Assembly: GCA_025449935.1 (NCBI GenBank)
Contig: JANWIJ010000006.1
Coordinates: 1-64,000, forward strand
Source: Chitinophagaceae bacterium
Lineage (GTDB): Bacteria; Bacteroidota; Bacteroidia; Chitinophagales; Chitinophagaceae
Length of the DNA: 64,000 bases
Reading direction: 5' to 3'
Shown here: positions 37,735 to 47,220 of the stretch, in pieces
Numbering within the stretch: the first letter of the stretch is position 1
How the letters are laid out: every line of letters starts with the position of its first letter
Notes under the pieces: generated by a model
The model's database searches: none
Seen by the model: the letters and a program-made list of their open reading frames with translations, nothing else
Told to the model about the DNA's origin: nothing
Translations under genes and position numbers: made by a program

Positions 37735-38028
37735 CTCCAGTACATCAATCACGGCCTCCGTATTGATCTGCCCGTAAACATGCGGAAATGTATCAGCGGT
37801 AGACGGCGACCAGTCAAACACATACTTGCTCGTGAGTTTATCCGTATCAATTACCAGTTTAACCAAACTGGTTTGACCGGCGAAATACCTTTCGAGTACG
37901 CCCGCTACCTGCTGCTCCTGTGAGCAATGAATAAAACCTTCCTCTTTTAAGGAAGGATGCTCATAAAATCCTCTTTCCTTCGCTGCATTCCATGCGTCCG
38001 CAGTTGTTACATGATAAATAACCGGCAT
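37729..38028 (-). CDS. DUF952 domain protein at the end of the aromatic operon
   Basis: 99 residues (MPVIYHVTTADAWNAAKERGFYEHPSLKEEGFIHCSQ with GFIHCS motif; FPHVYGQINTEAVIDVLEL). The family is of unknown function with a fold related to ADP-ribosyl-like small domains. Its ATG overlaps the aroC stop by one base (TAATG), so it is translationally coupled to aroC and must be made from the operon mRNA. A longer upstream open frame lies inside aroC and is rejected. Confidence 0.85.
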   Translation of the reverse strand: MPVIYHVTTADAWNAAKERGFYEHPSLKEEGFIHCSQEQQVAGVLERYFAGQTSLVKLVIDTDKLTSKYVFDWSPSTADTFPHVYGQINTEAVIDVLEL

Positions 38029-39020
38029 TATAAAACTCTTTTGATTTTCTGTTCCAGTATGAGTAAATCTGCCAGCACGATGGCAGTGACCGCTTCCAGC
38101 ACCACGGGTACCCGCAGCGCAATGCAAAGATCATGGCGCCCTTTTACGGACACGGTTTCAACTTTTTCAGTTTCCCAGTTCAGGGTGCGCTGTTCCCTGG
38201 GTGTGGAGGATGTTGGTTTGATCGCGATGCGGAAAACCAGTTCATTTCCATTTGTCAATCCTCCCACTACACCACCCGCGTGATTGGTCGTGGTTTTACC
38301 GAGCATATCTTCGATTGCATCGTTATGCCCGCTGCCAAACATTTTTGCAGCAGCAAAACCGGTTCCGAATTCAATGCCCCGTACAGCGGGAATGGCAAAC
38401 ACGATATGACTCAGCAAGGACTCAGCCGAATCAAAAAATGGTTCTCCCAGTCCAACCGGCAAATCATTCACCCGGCATTCAATAATGCCCCCGATGCTGT
38501 CCTTATTATCAATTGCTTTTTGGAGTCCTTTCTCCAGGTCACCCTCCCCGCCTATTTCCAATATTTTCGTGGCTACCTGAACCTGTCCAAGCAATTTTTT
38601 TGCAATAACCCCGGCAGCCACCAGCGCCACCGTTAACCTCCCGCTGAAATGGCCACTGCCCCGGTAGTCTTCGAAACCACCTGCCTTGGCTTTTGCCACA
38701 AAGTCTGCATGACCAGGTCTTGGGATGGCCCTTTGTTTTTCATAATCGCTGCTGCGAACATTCTTATTCTCAAAAAAAATAGCAATGGGCGCCCCGGTTG
38801 TTTTATCGTTGAAGAGGCCGCTCCTGAAAACAGGCAAGTCTTCTTCCTGCCTGGGTGTGGTTCCTTTCTGCGTTCCCCCTTTTCTCCTTTCAAGATCGGG
38901 AAGGAAATCCTCAACGGTCAAGGATAAACCCGCAGGACATCCGTCGATAACAATACCCACTGACTCGCCATGCGATTCACCAAAAATGGATATGCGGAAT
39001 ATGCGTCCAAAACTATTCAT
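38028..39020 (-). CDS. aroC: Chorismate synthase
   Basis: 330 residues. Family motifs: MNSFGRIFRISIFGESHGESVGIVIDGCPAG, SDYEKQRAIPRPGHADF, YRGSGHFSGR, and ATTNHAGGVVGGLTNGNELVFRIA. It converts EPSP to chorismate with reduced FMN, the last common step. It is a little shorter than the E. coli enzyme but lacks no core motif. It overlaps aroA by 8 bases. Confidence 0.97.
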   Translation of the reverse strand: MNSFGRIFRISIFGESHGESVGIVIDGCPAGLSLTVEDFLPDLERRKGGTQKGTTPRQEEDLPVFRSGLFNDKTTGAPIAIFFENKNVRSSDYEKQRAIPRPGHADFVAKAKAGGFEDYRGSGHFSGRLTVALVAAGVIAKKLLGQVQVATKILEIGGEGDLEKGLQKAIDNKDSIGGIIECRVNDLPVGLGEPFFDSAESLLSHIVFAIPAVRGIEFGTGFAAAKMFGSGHNDAIEDMLGKTTTNHAGGVVGGLTNGNELVFRIAIKPTSSTPREQRTLNWETEKVETVSVKGRHDLCIALRVPVVLEAVTAIVLADLLILEQKIKRVL

Positions 39021-40350
39021 GCCACCTGAACTTTTTATTTAAAGATACATCAGCACCCAGCTTTTTCAAATCTTCATAAAAATCCGGGTATGACTTATTA
39101 ACGGCTTCTCCTTTCCTGATGATGGTTTCTCCATCAGCCCTGAGGGCAGCCACCGCACAAGCCATGGCAATGCGGTGATCGTGATTGGAATGAACGCTGG
39201 CACCCCTGACGGTATTGCCTCCATGAATTACCATGACATCATCCTTCAAATCAATCTTCACATCCATTTTAGCAAATTCCTGCTGTAGTGTAATGGCGCG
39301 GTTACTTTCCTTATGCGTGAGGCGGCTTACTCCTGTTATTGTTGTCTCCCCTTTACAATAAGCAGCCAACGCCACAAGCGGCGGGAACAGATCCGGGCAA
39401 TCAGTGGCATCAAAATCAAAGGCATTCATCTCAGCAGGACGCACTTTTATTCCTTTTGCCTCCACCGCGATACCCGCGTTGGCAGACATTAACACATCCA
39501 CAATGGCTTTGTCAGCCTGGGAAGAAGTGAGATCCAATCCCCGCACCGTTACCGGACCGGCGATAGCACCGGCGACCAGGAGAAATGCCCCGCTGCTCCA
39601 GTCACTTTCAACAACATAAGCCCTCCCTTCTCCGGATGAGTGGGTTTGCAGGGAGCCGGGACGAAAAATAAATTCTTCATAGTTCCTGTACTCAGGCACC
39701 ATTAAACCAAACTGTTTCATCACATCCAATGTGAGGTCGATATAAGGCTTGCTTTTCAGGTTACGGACTTTTATAGAAACCGGCACGTGAATGGCGTTTC
39801 CAAAAGTATCTCCCGCTGAAAAATTCAGGGAGGCTCCATAGGCCATTAGCAAACCCGTAAGGAACTGCGAACTCAATGAACCATCTATTTCAATATTTGC
39901 GGGTAATAAAGGGCCCCGGATAATCAATGGCAGCCTTCCCTTATTGCTTTTCACTTTAACCCCCAGCCCCGGCAAAATCTCATCAAAAAAATCCATGGGT
40001 CTTTTTGCCAGGCTTCCGGAACCGGTGAGTGTTATTTCTTTATTACTCACGGCGGCGATGGGGGTGAACATCCGGATACTCAAGCCCGATTCCCCGCAAT
40101 TAATTTCCTTATCCCGGGGAATAACTCCTGCACTATTTATGACCAGGGATTCAGCTGTCATTACGACCTGCGCCCCCAATGCTTTAATTATTTCAATAGC
40201 CGCCTGATCATCATCCGAGTGACCGGGATTTTTAATCACAGTTTCTCCATTGGATAATAATGCCGCTGCACAAGCCCGCTGCATCGAACTCTTGGAAGCC
40301 GGTGCCTGAACAATTCCGTTTAACGGCGATGGATGAATGGTTACTTTCAC
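39013..40350 (-). CDS. aroA: 3-phosphoshikimate 1-carboxyvinyltransferase (EPSP synthase)
   Basis: 445 residues. PSPLNGIVQAPASKSSMQRACAAALLSNG (N-terminal substrate loop with Lys/Ser), GNAIHVPVSIKV region, and SNHDHRIAMACAVAALRADGETII at the C-terminus identify it. The N-terminal NPGHSDDDQAAIEIIKALGA and LTGSGSLAKRPMDFF fit the family. It forms EPSP from shikimate 3-phosphate and PEP. 3 bases after aroB. Confidence 0.96.
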   Translation of the reverse strand: MKVTIHPSPLNGIVQAPASKSSMQRACAAALLSNGETVIKNPGHSDDDQAAIEIIKALGAQVVMTAESLVINSAGVIPRDKEINCGESGLSIRMFTPIAAVSNKEITLTGSGSLAKRPMDFFDEILPGLGVKVKSNKGRLPLIIRGPLLPANIEIDGSLSSQFLTGLLMAYGASLNFSAGDTFGNAIHVPVSIKVRNLKSKPYIDLTLDVMKQFGLMVPEYRNYEEFIFRPGSLQTHSSGEGRAYVVESDWSSGAFLLVAGAIAGPVTVRGLDLTSSQADKAIVDVLMSANAGIAVEAKGIKVRPAEMNAFDFDATDCPDLFPPLVALAAYCKGETTITGVSRLTHKESNRAITLQQEFAKMDVKIDLKDDVMVIHGGNTVRGASVHSNHDHRIAMACAVAALRADGETIIRKGEAVNKSYPDFYEDLKKLGADVSLNKKFRWHE

Positions 40351-40353
40351 GAG

Positions 40354-41373
40354 TTATAATTCCTGAATGATTTTTTCCAGCTGTTTCAACGAAATGGTTT
40401 TCACAATCCCCTTCCCGATTTTATTCAGCAAAACATAATTCATTTCTTTCAGCTCGCGTTTCTTATCCATTTTCATCACATCAAATACCTGCCGTTTGTT
40501 AAATGAAGCATAAGTGGGCAGATGATATTTTTCTAACACGCTCACTACTCTCCCAGCCTGTTTAAACCCGGCAAGTTGTTCGGATAGATGACAGGCATAG
40601 GTCATCCCGATGGAAATGGCCTGCCCGTGCAATAATTCGTATTGATTTTCCAGTGCGTGACCCAATGTGTGCCCGAAATTCAGTAACCGTCTCTCTCCCT
40701 TTTCAAATTCATCCCGCTGCACCAGCTTTGTTTTTAATAAGGCATTCCGCAGGACGAGCTCAGAAACAGGTTTTTTTTTGCCCTGGTACGTTTTCAATGT
40801 ATTTCTTTCCAGTTCAGTAAACATCGCTGCATCTTTTATGCAGGCATGCTTGATGATCTCCGCAAACCCGTTTTCCCATTCCACCTGCGGCAGGGTATTA
40901 AGAAAAATCATATCGTGCAGGATAAAGGCCGGCTGGCGGATAAGACCTACCATATTTTTGAACAGGCCCACATCAATACCATTCTTTCCGCCGATTGAAG
41001 CATCCACCATTGCCAATAAAGAAGTGGGAACAAATCCAAAACGCACACCGCGCAAATATATGGAAGCCACATAGCCGGTAATATCTGTAACAACCCCGCC
41101 CCCGACACCCACCAGCGTGGTTGTTCTCCCGGCTTCCATCCCGACCAGGCTCTCAATGACCGCATCAACGGTTGCCTGTATTTTAAATTCTTCCCCGGGT
41201 TTTAATACAATGGTATTCCATCCCCGAAACCGCCTGGAATGTGCATTATATACATTTTCATCGGTGATCAGCACGGTTGATTTCTGGTCAGTTACCTGCT
41301 TCAGGTAAGTCATGCCCTGCGACAGGTAATAATCTGTGGAGGTATGGGAAAACTTGAAGGAAAGCTTTTGCAT
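40354..41373 (-). CDS. aroB: 3-dehydroquinate synthase
   Basis: 339 residues. GVGGGVVTDITGYVASIYLRGVRFGFVPTSLLAMVDASIGGKNGID is the NAD/metal core, and LLNFGHTLGHALENQ and GQAISIGMTYACHLSEQL carry the zinc-binding His/Glu residues. It converts DAHP to dehydroquinate. Its start overlaps the previous stop by one base (TGATG). Confidence 0.97.
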   Translation of the reverse strand: MQKLSFKFSHTSTDYYLSQGMTYLKQVTDQKSTVLITDENVYNAHSRRFRGWNTIVLKPGEEFKIQATVDAVIESLVGMEAGRTTTLVGVGGGVVTDITGYVASIYLRGVRFGFVPTSLLAMVDASIGGKNGIDVGLFKNMVGLIRQPAFILHDMIFLNTLPQVEWENGFAEIIKHACIKDAAMFTELERNTLKTYQGKKKPVSELVLRNALLKTKLVQRDEFEKGERRLLNFGHTLGHALENQYELLHGQAISIGMTYACHLSEQLAGFKQAGRVVSVLEKYHLPTYASFNKRQVFDVMKMDKKRELKEMNYVLLNKIGKGIVKTISLKQLEKIIQEL

Positions 41374-42458
41374 CAGGAATCCATGATTTTCTTCTGGTGA
41401 TTGATACTCTCCATGTGAACGGCATCAAAATACCGGGTGATAAATTCTTTACTCAGGCCGAGCTTATCGCCTTTTAAAAAAGCCCGTTCAATGATTTCAT
41501 TCCACCGGTTGGTTTGCAAAATGGTAATATTATTTTCTCTTTTGTAGTTACCGATCTGTTCTGCAACCTTCATGCGCTGGCCAAGGATCTGCATCAATTC
41601 GTCGTCGAGGTGATTGATCTGCTGCCGCAATTTTTCCAGTGCAGCGTGGTACTCGTCAGAATTAATGTCTTCCTTTCGCCATATAATACTATCCAGTATC
41701 TCTTTGAGCCGCTCGGGTGTCACCTGCTGGCTTGCATCACTCCAGGCATGATCCGGGTCTATATGACTTTCGATCATCAACCCATCGTAGTCAAGATCAA
41801 TCGCTTTTTGCGCCACTTCCAGCAATATATCACGGCGGCCGCAAATATGCGAGGGATCATTAATTATCGGCATACCCGGATGCTTCAGTTTCATTTCAAT
41901 CGCGAGGTGCCACATCGGTGCATTCCGGTATTCCGTGTTCCCGTACGACGAAAACCCGCGGTGAATCAAACCGATTTGTCTTACACCTGCCCGGGCGATT
42001 CTTTCAACAGCTCCGGTCCACAATTCCAGGTCAGGGTTAATGGGATTCTTTACCAGCACGGGTACATTTGTTCCTCTTAATGCATCCGCTACTTCCTGTA
42101 CGCTGAAAGGGTTTACGGTGGTCCGGGCCCCGATCCATAACACATCTACATCAAATGTAAGCGCATCCTGTACCTGCTTCGCGGTGGCTACCTCCACCGT
42201 GGTGGGCAATCCGGTTAGCTTTTTGGCCTGTTGCAACCAGGGTAATCCTTTAGCGCCAACACCCTCGAACATGCCGGGCTTGGTCCTGGGTTTCCAGATG
42301 CCCGCCCGCAGCATGTCCACCCTCCCGGTTGCAGCTAACCGTTGTGCAGTTTCCAGGACCTGCTCTTCGGTTTCTGCACTGCAGGGCCCGCTGATGATGA
42401 GCGGCCGTTTGTTCCATGTCGCCTGCGCCGTTTCGTTTATTGCCTCTGTTGCTTGCAT
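41373..42458 (-). CDS. Bifunctional DAHP synthase / chorismate mutase
   Basis: 361 residues. The N-terminal domain is a type I-beta (KDO8P-like) DAHP synthase (KRPLIISGPCSAETEEQV, MLRAGIWKPRTKPGMFEGVG, LWIGARTTVNPFSVQEVADAL, NDPSHICGRRDILLEVAQKAIDLDYDGLMIESHIDPD). The last 90 residues are an AroQ-type chorismate mutase (LEKLRQQINHLDDELMQILGQRMKVAEQIGNYKRENNI). It thus holds both the entry step and the branch step to prephenate, and the mutase part may act as the allosteric sensor. A near -7 box (TATCTTTA, 42471-42464) lies just upstream, so a secondary promoter is possible. Confidence 0.95.
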   Translation of the reverse strand: MQATEAINETAQATWNKRPLIISGPCSAETEEQVLETAQRLAATGRVDMLRAGIWKPRTKPGMFEGVGAKGLPWLQQAKKLTGLPTTVEVATAKQVQDALTFDVDVLWIGARTTVNPFSVQEVADALRGTNVPVLVKNPINPDLELWTGAVERIARAGVRQIGLIHRGFSSYGNTEYRNAPMWHLAIEMKLKHPGMPIINDPSHICGRRDILLEVAQKAIDLDYDGLMIESHIDPDHAWSDASQQVTPERLKEILDSIIWRKEDINSDEYHAALEKLRQQINHLDDELMQILGQRMKVAEQIGNYKRENNITILQTNRWNEIIERAFLKGDKLGLSKEFITRYFDAVHMESINHQKKIMDS

Positions 42459-42519: not shown

Positions 42520-43368
42520 CTATTTTATTATTCTTCTAATCTTATTCGCATCCTCAATCAACCGCAGCAGGTACTCGTAGTCCTCTTTCTCAATACTTTC
42601 CTTAAATCGCGACAACTGCGCAATATGCTCTTTTAAAACATCCAGGACGTTTTCTTTATTCTGCATAAAGATCGGCACCCACATGGCCGGGTTGCTTTTT
42701 GCCAGCCGCACTGTACTTTCAAAACCCGCCGAGGCTAATTCAAAAATGGCCTGCTCTTCTTTTTCTTTTTCCAGTACGGTATTGGCCAGCGCGAACGAGG
42801 TGATATGCGATATATGGCTGACATAAGCCGCATGCAGGTCATGCGCTTTTGCCTCCATTTCCAGGATATGCATGCCGATCTTCTTATACATCCCTTTCAC
42901 CCATTCCAGAGCATCAGCATCACTTTCTTCCGCATTGCAGATGATTACCGCTTTGTTTTCAAATGCCCCCCGTACCGCCGCCTCCGGACCGCTGTATTCA
43001 GTGCCCCACATGGGATGGGTAGCCACATACCTGCCGCGTTTCGGGTGGTTTTTAAGTAATTCAATCACCTGGCTCTTCGTAGAGCCAAGATCAACTACGA
43101 TCTGCTGTCCAACCTGGTCAATAATCGAAGGTAACAGCTCAACCAGTTTATCAACCGGTATTGCCAGTACAATTACATCGGACTGTTCAATGGCTTCTCG
43201 CAAGGGCAGTATCTCATCCACCAGGTCAAGTTTGATGGCTTGCTGTGCATGAAGTGAATTGGCTTCCACGCCAACCAGCTTTGCAGACAATTTTTTTTCG
43301 TGCAACTGGATGGCGAGTGAGCCGCCGATTAAACCAACCCCGACTATGGCAATTCTCTTCCGTTCCAT
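42520..43368 (-). CDS. tyrA: Prephenate dehydrogenase
   Basis: 282 residues. RIAIVGVGLIGGSLAIQLHEKKLSAKLVG is the NAD-binding start; LGSTKSQVIELL and YVATHPMWGTEYSGPEAAVRGAF are TyrA landmarks with the catalytic His. It converts prephenate to 4-hydroxyphenylpyruvate for tyrosine. No ACT domain is seen, so feedback must come from elsewhere. 3 bases after the aminotransferase gene. Confidence 0.95.
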   Translation of the reverse strand: MERKRIAIVGVGLIGGSLAIQLHEKKLSAKLVGVEANSLHAQQAIKLDLVDEILPLREAIEQSDVIVLAIPVDKLVELLPSIIDQVGQQIVVDLGSTKSQVIELLKNHPKRGRYVATHPMWGTEYSGPEAAVRGAFENKAVIICNAEESDADALEWVKGMYKKIGMHILEMEAKAHDLHAAYVSHISHITSFALANTVLEKEKEEQAIFELASAGFESTVRLAKSNPAMWVPIFMQNKENVLDVLKEHIAQLSRFKESIEKEDYEYLLRLIEDANKIRRIIK

Positions 43369-43371
43369 TTC

Positions 43372-44523
43372 TTATTGTTTTTTAATTCGTTGAATGACCT
43401 CTTCCATCTTTTCCTCCGGGCTGCATAAACTCACCCGTACATATTTCCGACCGGCACTTCCAAATATTCCACCGGGGGTTATGAAAACATTTAATTTATA
43501 TAGAATTTCATCACTCATCACATATGCATCCTTATAGGTTGCCGGTATGGCCGCCCACACAAATAAACCGGCCTGTTCTTTAGAATATTCACATTTCAAA
43601 AGATCCAGCAACTCAAATACTTTTTCCCTTCTTGCCTTATACACCAGGTTCAATTCTGCCTGCCATTCCTTTCCCAGGGTCAAAGCTCTTGCCGCCGCCA
43701 GTTGTACCGGCAAAAACATGCCGCTGTCCATATTGGTTTTGAACCGCAGCACCTGGTCTATCCTTTCTTTGGCACCGCATAGCATGCCCACCCGCCAACC
43801 GGCCATGTTATGACTTTTACTCAGGGAGTTCAATTCAATCACACAGTCTTTTGCTCCCTTAATGCTTAACAAACTCAGCGGGGATTCATTTAAAATAAAA
43901 GAATAAGGATTGTCATGTACAATAAGAATGTTCTGCTTCCTGCCAAACCTGGCCAGTTTTTCAAACAGCTGTTTGGTGGGTAACTGCCCCGTGGGCATTT
44001 GGGGATAGTTCACAAACATCAGCTTTACTTTTTTCAGTTTGCGCTTACCCAGTTTATCAAAATCAGGTTCATAATTATTTTTTGCCCTTAGTTTATATGG
44101 CACACACTTTCCACCGGCCAGTTGAACGGCTGCATTGTAAGTTGGGTAGCCCGGGTTGGGCACCAATACCTTATCTCCTTTATCCAGGTAGGTCATGCAG
44201 ATATGCATAATCCCTTCCTTGCTTCCTATGAGGGGTAAAATTTCTGTAGCAGGATCAAGGTCCACCTGGTACCATCGCTTATACCATTCGCTTATCCCCT
44301 TCCTCAATACCGGCGAACCTTTATAAGATTGGTAAGCATGAGCCGCCGGTTTCGCAGTTTCTTCCTGCAAAACCTGTATCACTCCGGGATGTGGTGGCAG
44401 GTCCGGACTGCCAATACCAAGATTGATGACATTCTTCCCTGCCTTATTCAGTTCCTCGATCTCTCTCAGCTTGTGAGAGAAATAGTACTCTCCGATTCCG
44501 TTTAATCGTTTGGCTACTTCCAT
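43372..44523 (-). CDS. Class I/II PLP-dependent aminotransferase (aromatic operon)
   Basis: 383 residues of fold type I. LGIGSPDLPPHPGVIQ, YQSYKGSPVLRKGISEWYKR, VLVPNPGYPTYNAAVQLAGG, VHDNPYSFI and the PLP-lysine stretch LNSLSKSHNMAGWRVGMLCG are present. Position between pheA and tyrA suggests that it makes Phe and Tyr from phenylpyruvate and hydroxyphenylpyruvate, although prephenate or another oxo acid is possible. Start overlaps pheA by 10 bases. Confidence 0.92.
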   Translation of the reverse strand: MEVAKRLNGIGEYYFSHKLREIEELNKAGKNVINLGIGSPDLPPHPGVIQVLQEETAKPAAHAYQSYKGSPVLRKGISEWYKRWYQVDLDPATEILPLIGSKEGIMHICMTYLDKGDKVLVPNPGYPTYNAAVQLAGGKCVPYKLRAKNNYEPDFDKLGKRKLKKVKLMFVNYPQMPTGQLPTKQLFEKLARFGRKQNILIVHDNPYSFILNESPLSLLSIKGAKDCVIELNSLSKSHNMAGWRVGMLCGAKERIDQVLRFKTNMDSGMFLPVQLAAARALTLGKEWQAELNLVYKARREKVFELLDLLKCEYSKEQAGLFVWAAIPATYKDAYVMSDEILYKLNVFITPGGIFGSAGRKYVRVSLCSPEEKMEEVIQRIKKQ

Positions 44524-45344
44524 AATCCTTTTTTATAAACACCATAAATCTTAATTGCAGCTGTTAGTCCTTTCAACTGGCTAATCACTTTATAGAATTT
44601 TCCCGGGGAATCGAATTCCATATCTGCATGAAAACTGTATTTAAAGTTGGTCCCGGGAACAGGAAAGCTTTGCAGCTTACTTAAATTGATGCCGCCGGCC
44701 GAAATTTTTGCCAGCACTTTTGCCAGGCTTCCGCGGGAATGGTCTGTGAGGAAGCTTACCGATGCTTTATCAGGCTGCTCTGCTTTGAATGCGGCCTCCT
44801 GCCGCTGCAACACAAGGAACCGGGTATAATTTTTCTTTAAGGTATGAATGTCAGGGACAATTATTTTCAGCCCGTATAACCGGGCGGCAACCTTACTGCC
44901 GATAGCGGCCAGGTGTTTACTCCCGGTCCGGTGAATTTGCCGCGCACTCAGGGCGGTATCATCGGTTTCTACCAGTTTCCATTTGTATTTATCCAGGAAA
45001 TCATCGCATTGCTGCAAAGCCATAGTATGGGAATGAATCTCTTTTATATCCCCGAGTTTTACCCCGGGATTCACCAGCAGGTTTTGACGGATCTGCAAAT
45101 AGATTTCCCCGGTTACAGCTAAATTGCTTTTCCGTAAAAGATTATAATTTGGCAGGATACTTCCGGCGATAGAATTCTCAATGGCCATGATACCGCCATC
45201 ACTTTTCTTATTAATTGCTGTTCGCTTCACGACATCTTTAAAAGTGGCGCAGGGAATTACTTCGACATCTTTTCCAAAGAACCGCTGCGCAGCCTCCTGG
45301 TGGAAGCTGCCGGGATATCCCTGTATATGTATGTTCCTGCTCAT
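44514..45344 (-). CDS. pheA: Prephenate dehydratase
   Basis: 276 residues. The PDT domain (IHIQGYPGSFHQEAAQRFFG, ATFKDVVKR, GGIMAIENSIAGSI, LVETDDTALSARQIHR, KKNYTRFLVL) is followed by a C-terminal ACT domain (about 190-275, SVSFLTDHSRGSLAKVLAKISAGGINLSKLQSFP), which binds Phe for feedback inhibition. It converts prephenate to phenylpyruvate. First structural gene of the operon, behind a Phe/Tyr leader peptide and a terminator (45498-45351), so it should be attenuated by charged tRNA-Phe/Tyr. Confidence 0.95.
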   Translation of the reverse strand: MSRNIHIQGYPGSFHQEAAQRFFGKDVEVIPCATFKDVVKRTAINKKSDGGIMAIENSIAGSILPNYNLLRKSNLAVTGEIYLQIRQNLLVNPGVKLGDIKEIHSHTMALQQCDDFLDKYKWKLVETDDTALSARQIHRTGSKHLAAIGSKVAARLYGLKIIVPDIHTLKKNYTRFLVLQRQEAAFKAEQPDKASVSFLTDHSRGSLAKVLAKISAGGINLSKLQSFPVPGTNFKYSFHADMEFDSPGKFYKVISQLKGLTAAIKIYGVYKKGLWK

Positions 45345-45350
45345 AGTTTG

Positions 45351-45381
45351 AAAACAAAAATCCCGGCCTGTCTGGCCGGGA
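45351..45381 (-). terminator. Attenuator terminator in the leader of the pheA operon
   Basis: On the minus strand TCCCGGCC (45381-45374), loop AGACA, and GGCCGGGA (45368-45361) form an 8-base perfect GC stem followed by TTTTTGTTTT. It ends 7 bases before the pheA ATG, so unrestricted termination would shut off the whole operon. The 5' arm can instead pair with GCCGGGA (45439-45433) inside the leader ORF. Confidence 0.88.
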
Positions 45382-45408
45382 CTCTTTATGTTGATTTTTA
45401 GTTGTTCG

Positions 45409-45498
45409 TTATACCGCGTTCAACAAAAGCATTCCCGGCTTCCTGTTAAAAAAGAAGTAATAAAAATAAAATCCGGAATATGTTCTTGCGATTGTCAT
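45409..45498 (-). CDS. Phe/Tyr-rich leader peptide of the pheA operon (attenuator)
   Basis: A 29-codon ORF read from ATG 45498 to TAA 45411-45409. Residues 7-17 read YSGFYFYYFFF, with eight consecutive aromatic codons (ttt tat ttt tat tac ttc ttt ttt, 45471-45448) and no Trp. It lies directly upstream of a terminator and of the operon that makes Phe and Tyr, exactly like E. coli pheL in layout but with both amino acids sensed. The start lies 7 bases after a -7 box, so the mRNA is nearly leaderless. Function inferred from composition and position. See the findings for the pairing scheme. Confidence 0.85.
   Translation of the reverse strand: MTIARTYSGFYFYYFFFNRKPGMLLLNAV
45433..45479 (-). promoter_or_regulatory. 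Antiterminator/anti-antiterminator segments in the leader
   Basis: Segment 1 (ATTCCGG, 45479-45473) sits 2-8 bases before the aromatic codons. It can pair with segment 2 (CCGGGAAT, 45438-45431) with one bulged G. Segment 2 (GCCGGGA, 45439-45433) is also perfectly complementary to the terminator 5' arm TCCCGGC (45381-45375). A ribosome stalled on the aromatic codons would cover segment 1 and release segment 2 to block the terminator. Confidence 0.7.
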
Positions 45499-45505
45499 GT
45501 GTAAA

Positions 45506-45513
45506 CAAATATA
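45506..45513 (-). promoter_or_regulatory. -7 promoter box for the pheA leader
   Basis: TATATTTG on the minus strand, exact TAnnTTTG, with a T-rich stretch (TTTT near 45536-45533) in place of a clean -33 TTTG. Leader-peptide ATG starts 7 bases downstream. Confidence 0.7.
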
Positions 45514-45546
45514 AGTTTCCCGCCGAGTAAAAAAAATTTTTATTTG

Positions 45547-47220
45547 TTATTTTCTTCCGCCCCCAGTTTCTGCATCATTCATCCGGATCTTCCGGCCACG
45601 GTAATTTTTGCCATCCATGGCCTTGATCATTTTCTTGCCGGATGAAGGCTCAATTTCAATCCAACTGGTCATTTCCTTCATATCAATACGGCCCAGCACT
45701 TCTTTTTTCAGGTCGCTCATATCCAGGATAAACTGGAGGAAACTGGCTTTATAAAAACCATCTTTGGTACCCAGGTTAACAAACAGTCGTTGATAATTTC
45801 CATTCCCGCCAAAACTTCTTCCTTTTGTATCCCTGTCGCGGGCGGTCGTTCTTTCCGCTCTATCCCCGCGGCGGTCTGTTCTCCGGTCATCCCCCCTCAT
45901 ATTCAGGTCGGCGGCGTTTTCGTAATATTTAAGGAAGCGGTCAAATTCGAGTGCCGCCACCCGCTGCAATATTTCTTCTTTGTTGATATCGGCAAATTTT
46001 TCCTTCAGGGTTGGCAAATACGCTTCATATTCCCCGTGGCTGATATCAGCCTGTAACATTTTATCAATGAAGTGAAAGAACTGTTTGCGGCAAACATCCT
46101 TACCACTCGGAATATCCATCTTATGTACGCGGGTATTCACCAGTCTTTCGATCTGTCTGAGCCGGTAGGTTTCTTTGGGTGTTACAATTGAAACCGATAC
46201 ACCACTTTTCCCTGCCCTGCCGGTACGGCCACTCCGGTGTGTGTATACTTCCACATCATCCGGCAATTCATAATTAATAACATGAGTGATACCCGTTACA
46301 TCAATACCGCGGGCGGCCACATCGGTCGCTATTAATAATTGTATACTTTTATCCCGGAACAGCCCCATCACTTTGTCCCGTTGCTGCTGGGTCAGATCTC
46401 CATGTATGGCATCAATATCATACCCTTCCCTGGTCAGCCGTTCCGCGATATCCTGCGTGTCGGCCTTGGTGCGGGCAAATACAATTCCGTAAATACCCGG
46501 GTTGAAGTCAATGATCCTTTTTAAAACCTCGTAGCGGTTGTGATGCTGGGTAGCGTAATACTGGTGGTCAATATTTGCAGCACCCGCATTTGTTTTACCA
46601 ATAGTGATCTCGAAAGGTTTGTCCATGTACCTTTTGCTCACCTGTCTTATTTCCGCCGGCATCGTCGCACTGAACAGCCAGGTGCTTTGGCGGTTGGGTG
46701 TGTTCTTTAAAATAAATTCAATGTCTTCCTTAAACCCCATGTTCAGCATTTCATCCGCTTCATCCAATACCACATAATGAATCTTTTCGAGGTTGATGGC
46801 TTTCCTTTCGATCAGGTCTATTAACCTGCCCGGGGTGGCGACGACTACATGTGTTCCTTTTTTTAAATCCCGGATCTGCAGGGTGATGGAAGTACCTCCA
46901 TACACGGCCGTAACGAAAACACTTGCTTTTTTGTTTTTGAATTTTTCCAGGTCGCTGGTGATCTGTAAGCAAAGTTCCCGGGTGGGGCAAACGATGAGGG
47001 CCTGGGGGAAACGATCCTCTTTTTTTATCAGTTGCAGCAGGGGCAATCCAAAAGCTGCAGTCTTACCCGTGCCCGTTTGTGCAAGGCCTATGAAATCCTT
47101 GGTTCCCTGGAGCAAAACGGGAATAGCTTTCTCCTGGATCGGCGTAGGCTGGGTAAATCCTAACGTTTTAATTGAATGAAGCAATCCTTCTTCAATTCCC
47201 AGCGCCTCAAATGTATTCAC
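45547..47220 (-). CDS. deaD: DEAD-box ATP-dependent RNA helicase with C-terminal RNA-binding domain
   Basis: 557 residues. All core motifs are present: Q motif (FTQPTPIQEKAIP), AQTGTGKTAAF, PTRELCLQ, VATPGR, VLDEADEM, LFSATMP, VFARTKAD, ATDVAARGIDV and HRSGRTGRAG. A linker with RGDDRRTDRRGDRAERT follows about residue 440, then a DbpA-type RNA-binding domain (RLFVNLGTKDGFYKASFLQFILDMSDL, WIEIEPSSGKKMIKAMDGKNYRGRKIRM). Such enzymes remodel rRNA and mRNA, often at low temperature. The gene is monocistronic. Confidence 0.95.
   Translation of the reverse strand: MNTFEALGIEEGLLHSIKTLGFTQPTPIQEKAIPVLLQGTKDFIGLAQTGTGKTAAFGLPLLQLIKKEDRFPQALIVCPTRELCLQITSDLEKFKNKKASVFVTAVYGGTSITLQIRDLKKGTHVVVATPGRLIDLIERKAINLEKIHYVVLDEADEMLNMGFKEDIEFILKNTPNRQSTWLFSATMPAEIRQVSKRYMDKPFEITIGKTNAGAANIDHQYYATQHHNRYEVLKRIIDFNPGIYGIVFARTKADTQDIAERLTREGYDIDAIHGDLTQQQRDKVMGLFRDKSIQLLIATDVAARGIDVTGITHVINYELPDDVEVYTHRSGRTGRAGKSGVSVSIVTPKETYRLRQIERLVNTRVHKMDIPSGKDVCRKQFFHFIDKMLQADISHGEYEAYLPTLKEKFADINKEEILQRVAALEFDRFLKYYENAADLNMRGDDRRTDRRGDRAERTTARDRDTKGRSFGGNGNYQRLFVNLGTKDGFYKASFLQFILDMSDLKKEVLGRIDMKEMTSWIEIEPSSGKKMIKAMDGKNYRGRKIRMNDAETGGGRK

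Follow-up and report, generated by a model that had tools for sequence, protein, structure and literature searches.

A probable leader-peptide attenuator with phenylalanine and tyrosine codons ahead of the pheA operon of Chitinophagaceae

In the enteric Phe leader, a short ORF with Phe codons and a terminator precede pheA, and in the enteric thr and ilv leaders one peptide carries the control codons for several end products. The dependence of enteric attenuators on timing is accepted. The authors of a 2010 survey stated that they knew of leader-peptide systems demonstrated in Proteobacteria and Actinobacteria alone, to which their survey added the Firmicutes (PMC2965389). In the portions of a report dealing with trpL of Sinorhizobium meliloti, the 5' end of the attenuator RNA is given as the ATG of the leader ORF (PMC7298713). 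As for the Bacteroidota, little seems to be in print, at least in the open-access literature, on the control of amino acid synthesis. The sections of a 2021 report concerned with Flavobacterium psychrophilum and other Flavobacteriaceae describe structured 5' elements before pheA and hisG, together with "strong clues" for leader-peptide attenuation at amino-acid operons of F. psychrophilum (PMC9723704); in those sections, the pheA element is described without codons, a mechanism for pheA or a distribution beyond the family. The Rfam family RF01692 (Bacteroid-trp) is presented, in the relevant part of its source, as a Bacteroidetes RNA with a candidate cis-regulatory role and a name taken from trp (PMC2864571).

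The leader described herein is very probably a ribosome-mediated transcription attenuator, which would sense the supply of Phe and Tyr together. It is encoded on the minus strand of the window (the whole stretch of 64,000 nucleotides of Chitinophagaceae DNA that was analysed), where it separates pheA from a DEAD-box helicase gene (45547-47220). As in the Phe_leader family of Rfam (RF01859), pheA is preceded by a terminator and by a leader ORF containing Phe codons; the differences are the Tyr codons beside the Phe codons, an operon that also holds tyrA and aroB, aroA and aroC, the predicted near-leaderless start and the phylum. By score our leader is not a member of that family, which gave the best sub-threshold Rfam match (30.5 bits against a cut-off of 55, E 0.0021 in a 301-base search). 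While the thr and ilv leaders sense Thr/Ile and Ile/Leu/Val, respectively, the end products here would be Phe/Tyr; RF01692 and RF00513 (Trp_leader) represent a kindred leader type for another amino acid. With the F. psychrophilum pheA element, as far as its description goes, our leader shares the phylum, the gene and the lack of an Rfam match, and with trpL of S. meliloti, according to the part of the report on that RNA, the start near the ATG, the latter differing in being an alphaproteobacterial leader for Trp. The attenuator was first proposed in a sequence-only reading, which knew of no described case in the family. For Chitinophagaceae this stands, since neither a leader from this family nor a joint Phe/Tyr leader from anywhere was found described in the open-access literature, most subscription papers being outside the scope of the search; the claim has to be narrowed, however, by the pheA element and the leader-peptide clues that the cited sections on F. 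psychrophilum had published in 2021 (PMC9723704).

The features of the locus are collected in Table 1. The pheA-tyrA-aroBAC operon of the sequence-only reading was found, the last gene being one that we take to be aroC; to be added are an aminotransferase gene after pheA and a DAHP synthase/chorismate mutase fusion after tyrA. As judged from their spacing, the seven genes are likely co-transcribed.

Table 1. Positions in the window of the leader elements and of the genes that follow them
Feature	Position	Strand	Basis
-7 box TATATTTG, putative Bacteroidota sigma-A-type promoter	45506..45513	minus	sequence and TAnnTTTG conservation
Leader ORF, 29 aa, MTIARTYSGFYFYYFFFNRKPGMLLLNAV	45409..45498	minus	base-by-base sequence check; counterpart in 97/103 family pheA loci, own included
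Control codons 10-17, F Y F Y Y F F F	45448..45471	minus	sequence check
Segment 1, core ATTCCGG (45479-45473)	45473..45491 (approx.)	minus	fold and partner-swap analysis
Segment 2, GCCGGGAATGCTTTTGTTG	45421..45439	minus	fold and partner-swap analysis; core in differing reading frames among relatives
Segment 3, CAACATAAAGAGTCCCGGC	45375..45393	minus	antiterminator partner of segment 2; partner-swap analysis
Predicted intrinsic terminator (segments 3:4) and U-run	45351..45381	minus	sequence, fold; hairpin and U-run in 94/97 family leaders
pheA, prephenate dehydratase, first gene	44514..45344	minus	PF00800, E 4.4e-56
Class I/II aminotransferase	43372..44523	minus	PF00155
tyrA, prephenate dehydrogenase	42520..43368	minus	PF02153 + PF20463
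DAHP synthase/chorismate mutase fusion	41373..42458	minus	PF00793 + PF01817
aroB, 3-dehydroquinate synthase	40354..41373	minus	PF24621 + PF01761
aroA, EPSP synthase	39013..40350	minus	PF00275
Presumed aroC, chorismate synthase	38028..39020	minus	translation

A base-by-base check confirmed that the 29-codon ORF contains eight consecutive Phe/Tyr codons exactly where the sequence-only reading had placed them. For comparison, a PheA protein search was run in 147 genomes of the family, 103 of which gave a match, our own included, and 44 none. Upstream DNA was examined at all 103 loci, taking up to 320 bases before pheA and ORFs of 8-70 codons. Setting aside six loci with fewer than six Phe/Tyr in eight codons and three without a recognised hairpin left 94 leaders, which were reduced to 82 non-redundant ones after removing sequences at least 85% alike.

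In every one of these 82 leaders, both Phe and Tyr are present in the run, with a total of 428 Phe and 248 Tyr codons. The two residues tend to alternate, as 367 changes between Phe and Tyr were counted within runs vs. 303.9 under within-run shuffling (z 5.9, a value inflated by the non-independence of related sequences), and the first Phe and the first Tyr both fall within the first three run codons in 63/82 leaders. These mixed runs suggest a joint response of the operon to Phe and Tyr, which fits the fact that the operon holds both branches and the common pathway. Trp is found in the densest Phe/Tyr stretch, or at most three codons before it, in 13 of the 97 family leaders. Across the 3.5 Mb genome, the codon pattern TWYx7 was matched three times at two separate sites, one being this leader and the other lying antisense within a gene that reads, from its translation, as ribonucleotide-reductase-like. 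Since the reversed control pattern likewise gave three matches in the same genome, the pattern is not significant by itself, and the argument has to be made from position and conservation.

Downstream of its start, the leader RNA offers alternative pairings. As claimed in the sequence-only reading, the core of segment 1 pairs with CCGGGAAT of segment 2 (45438-45431), with one bulged G, and GCCGGGA (45439-45433) is the perfect complement of TCCCGGC (45381-45375). Both pairings are longer than had been noted: segment 1 takes in about 45491-45473, and segment 2 goes on with CTTTTGTTG (45429-45421), which pairs also with CAACATAAAG (45393-45384). The 3' part of segment 3 is the 5' arm of the terminator, and a CAACAT block of the leader consensus lies at this segment. 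The terminator stem, TCCCGGCC-AGACA-GGCCGGGA (45381-45361), has 8 pairs and reaches 13 in the fold through A-U and G-U pairs; it is followed by the U-run TTTTTGTTTT (45360-45351), with six bases left before the pheA ATG at 45344. The z score of the whole-leader fold was -3.49, none of 200 dinucleotide shuffles being equally stable, and a consensus scan put the terminator stem on the + strand only, not on the minus.

The pairing was further assessed by calculating duplex energies for the segments of each of the 82 leaders with their own partners and with those of all the others, using 1000 permutations. Own partners gave a mean of -17.2 kcal/mol for 1:2, against -13.5 when swapped, and of -21.4 kcal/mol for 2:3, against -17.3; in both cases, 0/1000 permutations reached the observed value. 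The 1:3 control showed no such difference (-5.6 kcal/mol both with own and with swapped partners, 430/1000 permutations). Segments 1, 2, and 3 therefore change together, and we take the pairings to be functional. Three mutually exclusive pairings were thus found, the own-partner test covering 1:2 and 2:3 and the fold covering 3:4. In the search for column covariation, RNAalifold on a MAFFT alignment (A1, 81 rows, L094 excluded) gave six terminator pairs only, in our opinion because there are two leader types one base apart in segment 2. The partner-swap test stands in here for column covariation.

In the proposed mechanism, the polymerase would start a few bases before the leader ATG, giving a near-leaderless leader mRNA. 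With both charged tRNAs plentiful, the ribosome would pass the Phe/Tyr codons and 1:2 would pair, leaving segment 3 free for the 3:4 terminator, so that transcription would stop before pheA. With charged tRNA-Phe or tRNA-Tyr scarce, the ribosome would instead stall at the start of the run and cover segment 1; 2:3 would then pair before segment 4 is made, no terminator would form, and the operon would be transcribed from pheA to aroC.

These states were modelled by folding the 82 leaders, the ribosome being represented by an assumed 30-base footprint masked at the first run codon. Without a ribosome, the full leader formed 1:2 in 77/82 cases and 3:4 in 78/82 (at least five pairs). When the ribosome was at the start of the run and the polymerase just past segment 3, 2:3 formed in 79 leaders; with the ribosome at the stop codon and the RNA ending at segment 3, this number dropped to 43, and the complete leader then had the terminator in 81. 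At equilibrium, however, the full leader with a stalled ribosome had the terminator in 69 leaders and 2:3 in 13, and the RNA up to segment 3 without a ribosome showed 2:3 in 71 and 1:2 in 15. Because equilibrium folds favour the terminator despite the stall, and the naked RNA favours 2:3, the switch has to be kinetic. With this caveat, folding places the control codons so that a ribosome stalled there would mask segment 1 but not segment 2. A stall at the last run codons would no longer cover segment 1, which is why the early position of the first Phe and the first Tyr matters.

The same hairpin could also hide the start of pheA, in which case the leader peptide would switch translation of this gene instead of, or besides, terminating transcription. 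In many leaders the hairpin is indeed near the ATG: the end of the stem is 6 to 148 nt from the nearest in-frame pheA ATG (median 19 in the 82 leaders, the starts being nearest-ATG guesses), and 16 bases separate it from the 8-pair stem in the window. In a quarter of these leaders, however, stem and ATG are about 46 nt or more apart, which makes hiding of the start less likely there, and a hairpin followed by a U-run lies between leader and pheA in 94 of the 97 family leaders. A translational switch is unlikely.

An ORF with at least six Phe/Tyr in eight codons was detected at 97 of the 103 family loci, compared with 2/103 reverse complements and 20/2060 shuffles; for at least seven in eight, the numbers were 91/103, 0/103, and 3/2060. 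In a named collection whose genomes are partly shared with this set (Chitinophagaceae MAGs, Terrimonas, Lacibacter, Ilyomonas, Puia, and others), at least seven of eight were Phe/Tyr in 80/80 loci, these being the best 80 of 526 relatives. The short ORF rich in TTY/TAY codons that the sequence-only reading had expected upstream of the relatives' pheA is therefore present, and the conservation in close relatives of aromatic codons and of pairing, on which that reading had staked itself, was observed for both, in the 97 loci, the own-partner pairing and the 94 hairpins. The upstream gene, on the other hand, differs: in a search covering about 0.9 to 1.5 kb upstream, less at contig ends, a DEAD-box helicase was matched at only 20/103 loci and not at the other 83. 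The element thus goes with pheA. For this reason, it is very improbable that an ordinary terminator of the helicase gene is accompanied by a Phe/Tyr ORF that arose by chance from a T-rich stretch. The region is T-rich, and five or more of eight codons are Phe/Tyr in 151/2060 shuffles, but the excess at six of eight and the preference of each segment for its own partner both argue against chance.

A strong Phe/Tyr leader was absent at six of the 103 loci (L083, L091, L095, L102, L103, and L104). In at least two of these, the leader is weakened or altered, not lost outright, as L103 has YYYWYF and L095 has FYFYGY. The same kind of leader was also seen on a contig titled Williamsia sp. (L203, JADCRZ010000042.1), whose PheA is 72% identical to that of the window. 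Williamsia is an actinobacterial name, and the name of this MAG is probably wrong or the bin mixed.

The reading frame of the segment-2 core differs among the 82 leaders, being frame 2 in 40, frame 1 in 17, and frame 0 in 10, while in 3 the core lies past the stop codon and in 12 it was unrecognised by a simple pattern. As segment 2 is kept across all three frames, it is the RNA that is conserved, not the peptide. The C-terminal PGMLLL common to several leaders could point to a conserved small protein that acts in its own right, yet in other leaders the equivalent bases are translated in a different frame (SRVVFAKA, ECFC) or come after the stop codon, and what persists is the RNA pairing and the aromatic codons, so that such a protein is scarcely to be believed. 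A role of the peptide in trans, besides attenuation, is possible, as for peTrpL of Sinorhizobium in the passages devoted to that peptide (PMC7298713).

The promoter suggested by the -7 box is consistent with a start close to the leader ATG. Of the 82 non-redundant leaders, 72 have the motif TAnnTTTG no more than 45 nt from their ATG, vs. 8/976 control windows, and the motif ends 4-10 nt before the ATG in 71/94 leaders vs. 4/51 long ORFs of the window. A TTG 21-23 nt further up from the box was counted 63 times over 83 loci; in the window, where there is a run of T, the upstream TTG of many relatives is not obvious, and the upstream promoter element is poor. In the description of F. psychrophilum promoters, the -7 box spans -12 to -5 (PMC9723704), so that transcription would begin about 0-6 bases ahead of the leader ATG; for the window, the start is predicted at about 45501, some 3 nt before the ATG. 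The leader mRNA is probably almost leaderless, a class to which only 5.5% of the mapped mRNAs of F. psychrophilum belong in the figures given there (PMC9723704). Each of the attenuator features examined was found, that is, the run of end-product codons, the exclusive pairings, the terminator, the placement of the control codons and the promoter.

The position ahead of a biosynthetic operon with a terminator would also suit another sensor of Phe/Tyr (a T-box, a riboswitch or an RNA-binding protein), but neither the window nor the loci of 20 relatives gave an Rfam match at or above the gathering score, and the aromatic codons would be left unexplained, so that this is hardly credible. A T-box, in particular, gave no covariance match at gathering and was not among the 11 matches at E<=10, of which the sole riboswitch was a 10-bit partial SAM-SAH on the opposite strand.

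The Phe/Tyr leader has a counterpart at trpE. In our genome, the trpE leader (L172, C21:24500-25400) encodes MKQQTIKLWWWPATLKGL, with WWW, and has a terminator, a CCCCG/CGGGG hairpin followed by T8 before trpE; the box TATATTTG stands 7 nt before its ATG. The anthranilate synthase family was matched in 45 of 60 genomes of the family, and 30 trpE loci were examined, own included. With a single exception, these had a leader in which two or more Trp fall within five codons (29/30). The strict motif TAnnTTTG ended 4-10 nt before the ATG in 8/30, a count from which we conclude nothing, the Trp ORF being picked anywhere in the locus. RF01692 had no match at E<=1 in 8 trpE loci, and RF00513 had sub-threshold matches in 3 of the 8. 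At other amino-acid loci of our genome, inspection by eye of the stretches before the homoserine dehydrogenase and IlvD genes revealed no obvious leader. HisG (PF01634) had no match in this genome, given as 100% complete, while 13/14 control genomes matched; histidine auxotrophy or a divergent enzyme are both possible.

A similar Phe/Tyr ORF is also present elsewhere in the class Bacteroidia. In a class-wide draw of 247 genomes, PheA was matched in 64, 60 of them outside Chitinophagaceae, and up to 420 bases were searched (at L167, where the match begins at residue 50, the pheA start is approximate, and less sequence was available for L133 and L159). At the 6-of-8 cut, 32 of the 60 loci had an ORF and 28 did not, vs. 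1/60 reverse complements and 6/1200 shuffles. The 5-of-8 cut gave 36/60 loci, from 13 of 24 family-level groups; 27 of these 36 leaders had a recognised terminator and 9 had none. One group (f13) showed no Phe/Tyr leader in 8/8 genomes. Trp codons stand beside the Phe/Tyr run in L112, L120, L121, L144, L145, L146, and others outside the family (for example, YFWFYYYFF), and Trp occurs anywhere in 16 of the 41 upstream ORFs counted there. From their codons, such Trp-bearing pheA leaders may sense all three aromatic amino acids.

Taken as a whole, the comparison strongly supports a classical mechanism in a new form, with a joint Phe/Tyr leader that appears nearly leaderless, in a phylum where little of the kind is documented. 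We lean, if only slightly, towards a wider view in which a single, almost leaderless ORF of alternating Phe and Tyr codons would be the general aromatic sensor of Bacteroidia, of deep ancestry within the class; together with the sister Trp leader of trpE, it would make peptide-leader attenuation the chief means by which the three aromatic branches are controlled, in a phylum whose ribosomes dispense with Shine-Dalgarno pairing, with some lineages adding Trp codons. A joint leader on one seven-gene operon, at 97/103 loci of the family and about half of those elsewhere in the class, would amount to a simple sensor with swappable codons. It would be an example of classical attenuation operating from an almost leaderless start, and it opens to direct test the question of how ribosomes that do not use Shine-Dalgarno pairing can keep up with the polymerase.
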